The notes under the pieces were generated by a model. The model did not search any database. It saw only the letters and a program-made list of their open reading frames with translations, and was not told the origin of the DNA. A program made the translations under genes and the position numbers. Shown in pieces: positions 43,688 through 45,068 of a stretch of 64,000 nucleotides of DNA; position 1 is the stretch's first letter; every line of letters begins with the position of its first letter. The DNA is from Kordia zhangzhouensis. GTDB lineage: Bacteria > Bacteroidota > Bacteroidia > Flavobacteriales > Flavobacteriaceae. Where the stretch lies: NCBI RefSeq assembly GCF_001005305.1, contig NZ_LBMH01000004.1:1-64000 (forward strand), in the 5' to 3' direction.

Positions 43688-44308
43688 GTGAATAGCATTG
43701 TTCATCCTACATATTTTCCAAGTATTGCGCATTATGTTGTCTTTGCAAATGCGGAGGAGATTGTATTTGAAATGGAAGATAATTTCCAAAAACAAACCTA
43801 TCGAAATCGAACATATATTTATGGTGCAAACGGAAGCCTCATGTTAAATGTTCCGGTGCGTCATTCTAAAAAAGATAAGCATCAAAAATATAGAGATATT
43901 CAAATTGCGAATGAAACAGCTTGGCAACGATTACATTTTAAATCGCTTGAAAGCGCTTATAGAGCATCCCCTTATTTTGAATATTATGAAGACGAGCTAC
44001 TTCCTCTTTTTAAAAAAAAGTATACTTATTTAATCGATCTGAATTTTGATACGATTGAGATTATCAACGAATGTTTGCAACTAGAAGTAAATACTCAAAA
44101 AACACAAAAATATCAATCAATAGTTTCTGATCTAAAAGACTTTAGAGAATTGGTTGATGTAAAAAAAGAAGCTATTCATCAATTTGATGAATATACGCAA
44201 GTCTTTGATGCCAAACATGGCTTTCTTCCCAACTTAAGTATATTAGACCTCCTATTCAATGAAGGAACAAATGCTCTTTCTTATTTAGAGCAGCAAACTA
44301 TCAAATAA
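43688..44308 (+). CDS. WbqC-like family protein (GTG start)
   Basis: A 206-residue soluble protein of the WbqC family, found in glycan and lipid biosynthesis settings but without proven reaction. It opens with IVHPTYFPSIAHYVVFANA and has the conserved FQKQTYRNRTYIYGANG, NVPVRH and AWQRLHFKSLESAYRASPYFEYYE. The frame begins at GTG 43688, 26 bases after lepB. An ATG start in frame would be much later, so GTG is preferred. Its stop overlaps the next gene's ATG by one base. Confidence 0.88.
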   Translation: MNSIVHPTYFPSIAHYVVFANAEEIVFEMEDNFQKQTYRNRTYIYGANGSLMLNVPVRHSKKDKHQKYRDIQIANETAWQRLHFKSLESAYRASPYFEYYEDELLPLFKKKYTYLIDLNFDTIEIINECLQLEVNTQKTQKYQSIVSDLKDFRELVDVKKEAIHQFDEYTQVFDAKHGFLPNLSILDLLFNEGTNALSYLEQQTIK

Positions 44309-44691: not shown

Positions 44692-44907
44692 TTAAGAGCC
44701 TGAACAATATGTAGGTTCTGTTTGGCAATTTAACTCTGTAAAATTACATTCATTCCCATCATTAGAATAGCAAATACTGGTTTTGCATATCGATTCCAAT
44801 GTATGTGTGCAACCCCAAGTTTTGCCTCCACCCATAATTTTTATTGGTTTAAGACTAGAAATTTTTTGCCTATTAAGTAATAGCAATTTAGCATTCTCTT
44901 TCTTCAT
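44692..44907 (-). CDS. Orphan RiPP (class I lanthipeptide-like) precursor peptide
   Basis: A 71-residue peptide. The leader has the Bacteroidota class I lanthipeptide motif L-x-L-N-x3-I-S-x-L (residues 9-19) and ends in Gly26-Gly27-Gly28, a double-Gly-type cleavage site for a C39 peptidase. The core (29-71) has six cysteines (33, 41, 46, 54, 61, 68) interspersed with Ser and Thr, enough for thioether rings or disulfides. No LanB, LanC, radical-SAM or C39 transporter gene occurs in the window, so modification would have to occur in trans. It could instead be a disulfide-bonded secreted peptide. Confidence 0.75.
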   Translation of the reverse strand: MKKENAKLLLLNRQKISSLKPIKIMGGGKTWGCTHTLESICKTSICYSNDGNECNFTELNCQTEPTYCSGS

Positions 44908-45068
44908 AATAAAAAGGTTTTAAAATTAATGTGAGTGCTAAAATATCGTTACAAAATGTTGAATGCAAGAACGGTAGCCGTCGTTTTATAAAACAAATGT
45001 TCCTATAAAAGAATATGGAAAATTGCTAAAGAAAAAGGTGTAGTATAAATTTTAATTCCCAAAAAAAA

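Follow-up and report, generated by a model that had tools for sequence, protein, structure and literature searches.

The open reading frame at 44692..44907 on the minus strand of the window (the whole 64,000-nucleotide stretch analysed, corresponding to contig C33:1-64000) is one of about 120 dispersed precursor genes that share a common leader. It most probably encodes a class I lanthipeptide precursor that is matured in trans by one promiscuous enzyme hub located on a different contig. This reading draws on the existence of the gene family and of only one hub, on the link between the leader and the dehydratase LanB, on the statistics of the core peptides, and on the upstream elements that the precursors share. 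The original prediction had described the gene as a lone orphan. It has more than 100 relatives with the same leader in its own genome.

Leader and Core of the Window Precursor

The gene starts with ATG and encodes 71 amino acids followed by a stop codon. It has homologues in its own genome and syntenic homologues in other Kordia, and by these sequence criteria it is confirmed as a real gene. The peptide opens with MKKENAKLLLLNRQKISSL and runs on to a Gly-Gly-Gly at residues 26-28, the full leader being read as MKKENAKLLLLNRQKISSLKPIKIMGGG. Alignment, a leave-one-out HMM, and the published motif (PMC7268733) delimit a Cys-free leader of 27 residues, MKKENAKLLLLNRQKISSLKPIKIMGG (44827..44907, minus strand), and a core of 44 residues with six Cys and 12 Ser/Thr, GKTWGCTHTLESICKTSICYSNDGNECNFTELNCQTEPTYCSGS (44695..44826, minus strand), whose Cys spacing is common to the syntenic homologues. 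Cleavage is expected after Gly-Gly (GG/GGG). Counted from after the GGG, the core is KTWGCTHTLESICKTSICYSNDGNECNFTELNCQTEPTYCSGS, the 43-residue, six-Cys stretch that had been predicted, and the frame was confirmed at exactly those coordinates.

Leaders of the LxLxKx5L...GG type are known from Bacteroidota class I lanthipeptides (PMC7268733; NCBIfam NF038153). The window leader carries the motif as LxLx[K/R]x5L, with Arg replacing Lys (LLLNRQKISSL). An HMM of the leader built without the window peptide ranked this peptide first among 436 short window ORFs (E = 3e-7; runner-up 0.1), and the 44692-44907 ORF alone among the 436 matched the profile. A second HMM, built solely from precursors at the LanB loci of Lacinutrix, Aquimarina, and Leptobacterium and therefore independent of the window family, also placed it at the top of the window (E = 3e-4). 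Both searches uphold the earlier assignment of the leader to the Bacteroidota class I type. An HMM made from hub-linked leaders of one subfamily was too narrow and missed the window peptide, and the peptide used alone as a query against the genome contigs found no relative. Scans of the peptide with Pfam and NCBIfam gave no match, nor did the TIGR04149 leader model, which had been proposed as a check, at E<=10. The nearest curated model, NF038153 (lant_leader_L1a), scores only some siblings. Among nine of them, one passes (25.5 bits against a cut-off of 22), six score below the cut-off, and two have no match; the window peptide likewise has no match and falls short of the cut-off.

Two neighbouring genes, one for a WbqC-family protein (43688-44308) and one for a small membrane protein, have the precursor behind them. 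As had been noted, none of the genome's matches to LanB, LanC, C39, or radical-SAM proteins falls within the 64-kb window. A radical-SAM maturase in the window was rejected for this reason; the genome as a whole encodes 22 radical-SAM proteins.

A Dispersed Precursor Family in Kordia

The source genome (G000) is a draft of 4.03 Mb and 99.97% completeness. Its hub LanB assigns it to Kordia (Flavobacteriaceae), with K. algicida, K. periserrulae, K. jejudonensis, and K. aestuariivivens among the species indicated. The leader profile matched this genome 122 times at E<=10, and 99 of the matches reached E<=0.01. About 124 peptides with leader and core were extracted from it, 117 of which contain GG and 120 a relaxed LxLxKx5L motif. 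The coordinates of 119 of these 124 precursors distribute them over about 82 places on 16 contigs, with 55 standing as single genes. Just past the right end of the window, at G000:C33:64902 and 65615, the family has two more precursors. Each of the 10 other Kordia genomes holds 103 to at least 150 leader matches, and across all 11 the number of precursors per genome ranges from 99 to at least 150.

The WbqC-family gene locus offers a view of how the window gene has fared within the genus. One or two leader peptides occur at the equivalent place in six of the 10 other Kordia genomes, with similar Cys spacing, and four syntenic relatives have no obvious precursor copy within 1.5 kb. Two orthologous precursor pairs from this locus, with dN/dS values of 0.45 and 0.05, are under purifying selection. 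If the window gene were a remnant of precursor duplication, in decay and no longer expressed, its isolation, the K-to-R change in its leader motif, and the four relatives without a copy would be readily explained. However, its frame is intact, its Cys pattern and upstream palindrome are conserved across Kordia, and selection has preserved the two orthologous pairs, all of which renders decay highly improbable.

A Single Enzyme Hub on Another Contig

For a working class I precursor without maturation genes nearby, action in trans by a remotely encoded enzyme set had been proposed, together with a whole-genome search for maturases and peptides with the same leader. That search yielded, besides the roughly 124 peptides, a single hub. 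The LanB domain PF04738 occurs exactly once in each of the 11 Kordia genomes, where it adjoins LanC and has a C39-ABC exporter nearby. In G000 the hub (L099; C12:9500-29400) comprises, in order, a sigma-like factor, a TPR protein, LanC, the N-part (762 aa) and the C-part (300 aa) of a split LanB, a TPR-AraC regulator, two precursors, HlyD, and a C39-peptidase ABC exporter. This order is kept across the other Kordia hubs that were read, and hub LanB proteins are 86-89% identical among Kordia. The hub domains PF04738, PF14028, and PF05147 are present, and every hub domain scores well over its Pfam cut-off. The LanB resembles NisB, MibB, and 9g04, the LanC resembles NisC and 8byk, and the exporter resembles PCAT1 (4ry2); compared with solved relatives, the CHG and WCYG motifs of LanC and the RY.DP..HIR.R block of the LanB C-part are retained. 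The TPR-AraC regulator occurs in duplicate together with its MKSLKLKK... peptide in some hubs (L108 in G003 and L110 in G002), which suggests that they form a regulator-peptide pair.

The hub lies on a different contig from the window gene, and the two would still be about 60 kb apart if these contigs abut. In the single-contig genome G003, about 2 Mb separate the WbqC-locus homologue (L162) from the sole LanB. The presence of one locus with split LanB, LanC, and C39 exporter on another contig supports the proposed action in trans.

The association of the leader with LanB extends beyond Kordia. Among 299 genomes drawn across the Flavobacteriaceae (leader threshold E<=0.001), the leader was found in 11 and LanB in 25, and all 11 leader genomes lie within the 25 (hypergeometric P=1.3e-13). 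Six of the nine leader genomes outside Kordia have a leader gene no more than about 4 kb from LanB; in genome G219 the two are on different contigs. LanB is, as judged by this co-occurrence, the enzyme that appears to track the leader across genera. Two genomes of one non-Kordia genus, one of which is Leptobacterium flavescens by its coordinates, carry dispersed precursors (8 and at least 23 matches), and dispersal is therefore not unique to Kordia.

The same comparisons bear on whether the window peptide could be the RiPP precursor of another enzyme, namely a class V-like LanC/APH/HopA1 set, a LanC-nucleotidyltransferase, or a radical-SAM protein. Such loci are present in G000, and in one of them (L101) a leader-type precursor lies directly behind a LanC-nucleotidyltransferase pair. 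Nevertheless, G004 has no LanC except that of its hub and still carries 103 precursors, so another LanC is not needed; no radical-SAM protein is found in the window or tied to the leader; and it is LanB that the leader accompanies in other genera. A different maturation enzyme is thus very unlikely, and the LanB hub is retained as the probable partner.

The class V-like locus (L100:3513-9980; G000:C1, about 104.0-110.5 kb) encodes a subtilase-type protease, a 310-aa tandem-repeat peptide (GPTGTQGC...), an APH-type kinase, a HopA1-domain protein, and a LanC with same-length homologues in nine of the 10 other Kordia genomes. The second locus (L101:8361-10450; G000:C12, about 70.4-72.4 kb) has a divergent LanC and a nucleotidyltransferase ahead of its precursor, which seems to be the pairing that PMC11118758 noted for Kordia. 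A LanC domain also occurs inside open frames of 974-982 aa at G002:C2:129796, G006:C34:229372, and G010:C5:128579; these are perhaps LanM-type enzymes, which are absent from the genome of the window.

Composition of the Core Peptides

Leaders and cores of the family differ sharply in composition. Cys makes up 11.7% of core residues versus 0.1% of leader residues, and Ser/Thr accounts for 19% of the cores. Pairs of cores do not resemble each other more than shuffled cores do (identity 0.23 versus 0.22), and leader identity is 0.46. In 103 non-redundant cores, Ser/Thr-x4-Cys is found 7.9 s.d. above shuffles and Ser/Thr-x5-Cys 4.1 s.d. above; the reverse order, Cys-x4-Ser/Thr, is 3.0 s.d. below shuffles in this set (z about -3 to -4 for the cores in general). 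This one-directional spacing spans Ser/Thr-x2-5-Cys, and in the same shuffle test neither acidic/amide nor hydrophobic residues before Cys gave a comparable x4 peak. The order and spacing of Ser/Thr-x4-Cys correspond to those of lanthionine rings, as far as the sequences can indicate. In addition, neighbouring C-C pairs are depleted, in no core do Cys outnumber Ser/Thr, and cores with odd and even Cys counts stand at 61:63. These statistics hold for the set, and some members may be unmodified.

Disulfides had been offered originally as another route of maturation. In that case, the window gene would encode a bacteriocin-like or signalling peptide that carries disulfides but is otherwise unmodified, and its Gly-Gly leader would serve only for cleavage and export by the C39-ABC transporter. 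A Gly-Gly leader and a C39 exporter suffice for export, and a second family of Gly-Gly peptides (MLKSI...) shares the putative TACGGT operator without having a LanB-type leader. Yet within the family sample the leader is confined to genomes with LanB. Moreover, obligate disulfides are disfavoured because half of the cores carry an odd number of Cys, and this parity, together with the directional Ser/Thr-Cys spacing and the depletion of C-C neighbours, argues against the disulfide reading. We regard it as unlikely and favour thioether formation by the hub.

Shared Upstream Elements

The window gene is preceded by an A-rich translation-initiation context (44908..44921, minus strand) with A at -11..-14 and at -3, a pattern seen family-wide: A is found at -12 in 92% of precursors versus 53% of control genes and at -3 in 81% versus 45%. 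These A-rich starts are in line with the Kozak-like start signals known in Flavobacterium johnsoniae (PMC6847099).

Farther upstream, at -85, the window gene has the palindrome TTTATAAA within gTTTTATAAAAc (44985..44992, no strand assigned), a putative shared operator or promoter element that is also found upstream of the syntenic homologues. At about -85 (-108..-75), TTTATAAA precedes 26 of 123 precursors, the window gene included, and one of 178 control genes (P=2.5e-10). A second palindrome, TACGGTnTTaCCGTA, lies at about -70 in 18 of the 123 precursors and three of the 178 controls (P = 3e-5). None of the 123 precursors carries both. The TACGGT operator is absent upstream of the window gene, and the classical Bacteroidota -33/-7 promoter (TTG-N-TAnnTTTG) is not enriched upstream of precursors. 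Sites matching TACGGTnTTaCCGTA with at most one mismatch number 20 in the genome, about 14 of which lie 62-76 bp before a gene for a Gly-Gly peptide, making it a candidate operator of a peptide regulon. Both palindromes are putative operators. Flanks inherited by duplicated genes could contribute to their being shared, although the surrounding sequence has diverged.

About 50 sites of the TACGGTnTTaCCGTA palindrome were counted in G000, five of them exact and some without a peptide gene behind them. At a fixed distance, it precedes two kinds of Gly-Gly peptide genes. The second kind has the leader MLKSI.NL...K..Q.NI.GG and Cys-rich cores; a search of the genome gave about 16 good matches, a large share of which follow TACGGTnTTaCCGTA at about -70 (loci L188, L189, L191, L193, L195, L196, and L198).

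Proposed Maturation in Trans and Relation to Known Systems

In the mechanism that we propose, the conserved leader would be recognised by the one split dehydratase and the one LanC of the hub. The N-subunit of LanB would glutamylate Ser/Thr and its C-subunit would eliminate the glutamate, and LanB together with LanC would thereby install thioether rings in the core. The hub C39-peptidase/ABC exporter and HlyD would then cut after Gly-Gly and export the product. The same hub would serve the other precursors, about 120 in number, that are dispersed over the chromosome; from a constant leader and one tolerant enzyme set there would arise a large library of cyclic peptides with unrelated sequences, at least partly under shared promoter elements. 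Points against this proposal include the Arg for Lys in the leader, the missed NF038153 cut-off, the failure of the HMM of hub-linked leaders to reach the window peptide, the contig split in G219, and the presence of other RiPP enzymes in the genome.

The leader family itself is known. Like the L1a (LxLxKx5L) class I lanthipeptides of Bacteroidota, the window peptide has the leader motif (with Arg for Lys), a Gly-Gly site and a C39-peptidase exporter, and a core of Cys with Ser/Thr, and its genome encodes LanB (N and C, split as in the pinensins; PMC7268733) and LanC. Related enzyme sets, Chryseobacterium ChmABC and Runella RuiABC, made thioether rings in E. coli supplied with native-type GluRS/tRNA-Glu (PMC9993889). 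In those systems, however, the precursors stand beside LanB/LanC, whereas the window precursor, as a member of a set of about 120, is far from the sole hub, which is on another contig. In the survey that described the leader type (PMC7268733), only genes up to seven positions away from LanC were covered, and the dispersed Kordia precursors were therefore out of its reach.

In layout, the closer parallel is with the prochlorosins and synechococsins (ProcM, SyncM; PMC10783134, PMC12328550), in which one enzyme of a marine bacterium likewise serves numerous dispersed precursors that are alike in leader but unrelated in core. The genome of the window has one LanB for 124 precursors at about 82 places, with putative enzyme tolerance. 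In contrast to the class II LanM and Nif11-type leaders of prochlorosins, Kordia has a separate class I LanC, a split LanB, and an unrelated leader, the window peptide matching no Pfam or NCBIfam model. The prochlorosin maximum is 83 precursors per genome (PMC10783134), compared with 99 to at least 150 in Kordia. Kordia has been called RiPP-rich, with many lanthipeptide and radical-SAM precursors predicted and a LanC-nucleotidyltransferase locus seen; the main-text passages of that report (PMC11118758) do not describe a single hub for more than 100 dispersed precursors or shared operators. A genus-wide combination of class I enzymes, split LanB, and more than 100 dispersed precursors per genome was not found in the freely available main texts searched, and the scale and trans layout appear to be undescribed.

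On balance, we lean towards a broader view in which every Kordia genome holds a one-enzyme class I library of a hundred or more precursors, above any prochlorosin set in the literature searched, and in which at least two palindromic operators, one also controlling the second Gly-Gly family, make it a coordinately regulated, genome-wide arsenal. Surveys of LanC neighbourhoods miss dispersed precursor genes of this kind. If one class I hub does accept more than 100 unrelated cores, nature would have furnished proof that class I enzymes can work by leader-only recognition, and the hub would be a tool for cyclic-peptide libraries. The single lanB gene in Kordia makes this directly testable by genetics. 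Kordia would also provide a second, independent case beside the prochlorosins for asking what makes marine bacteria retain lanthipeptide repertoires of such size.
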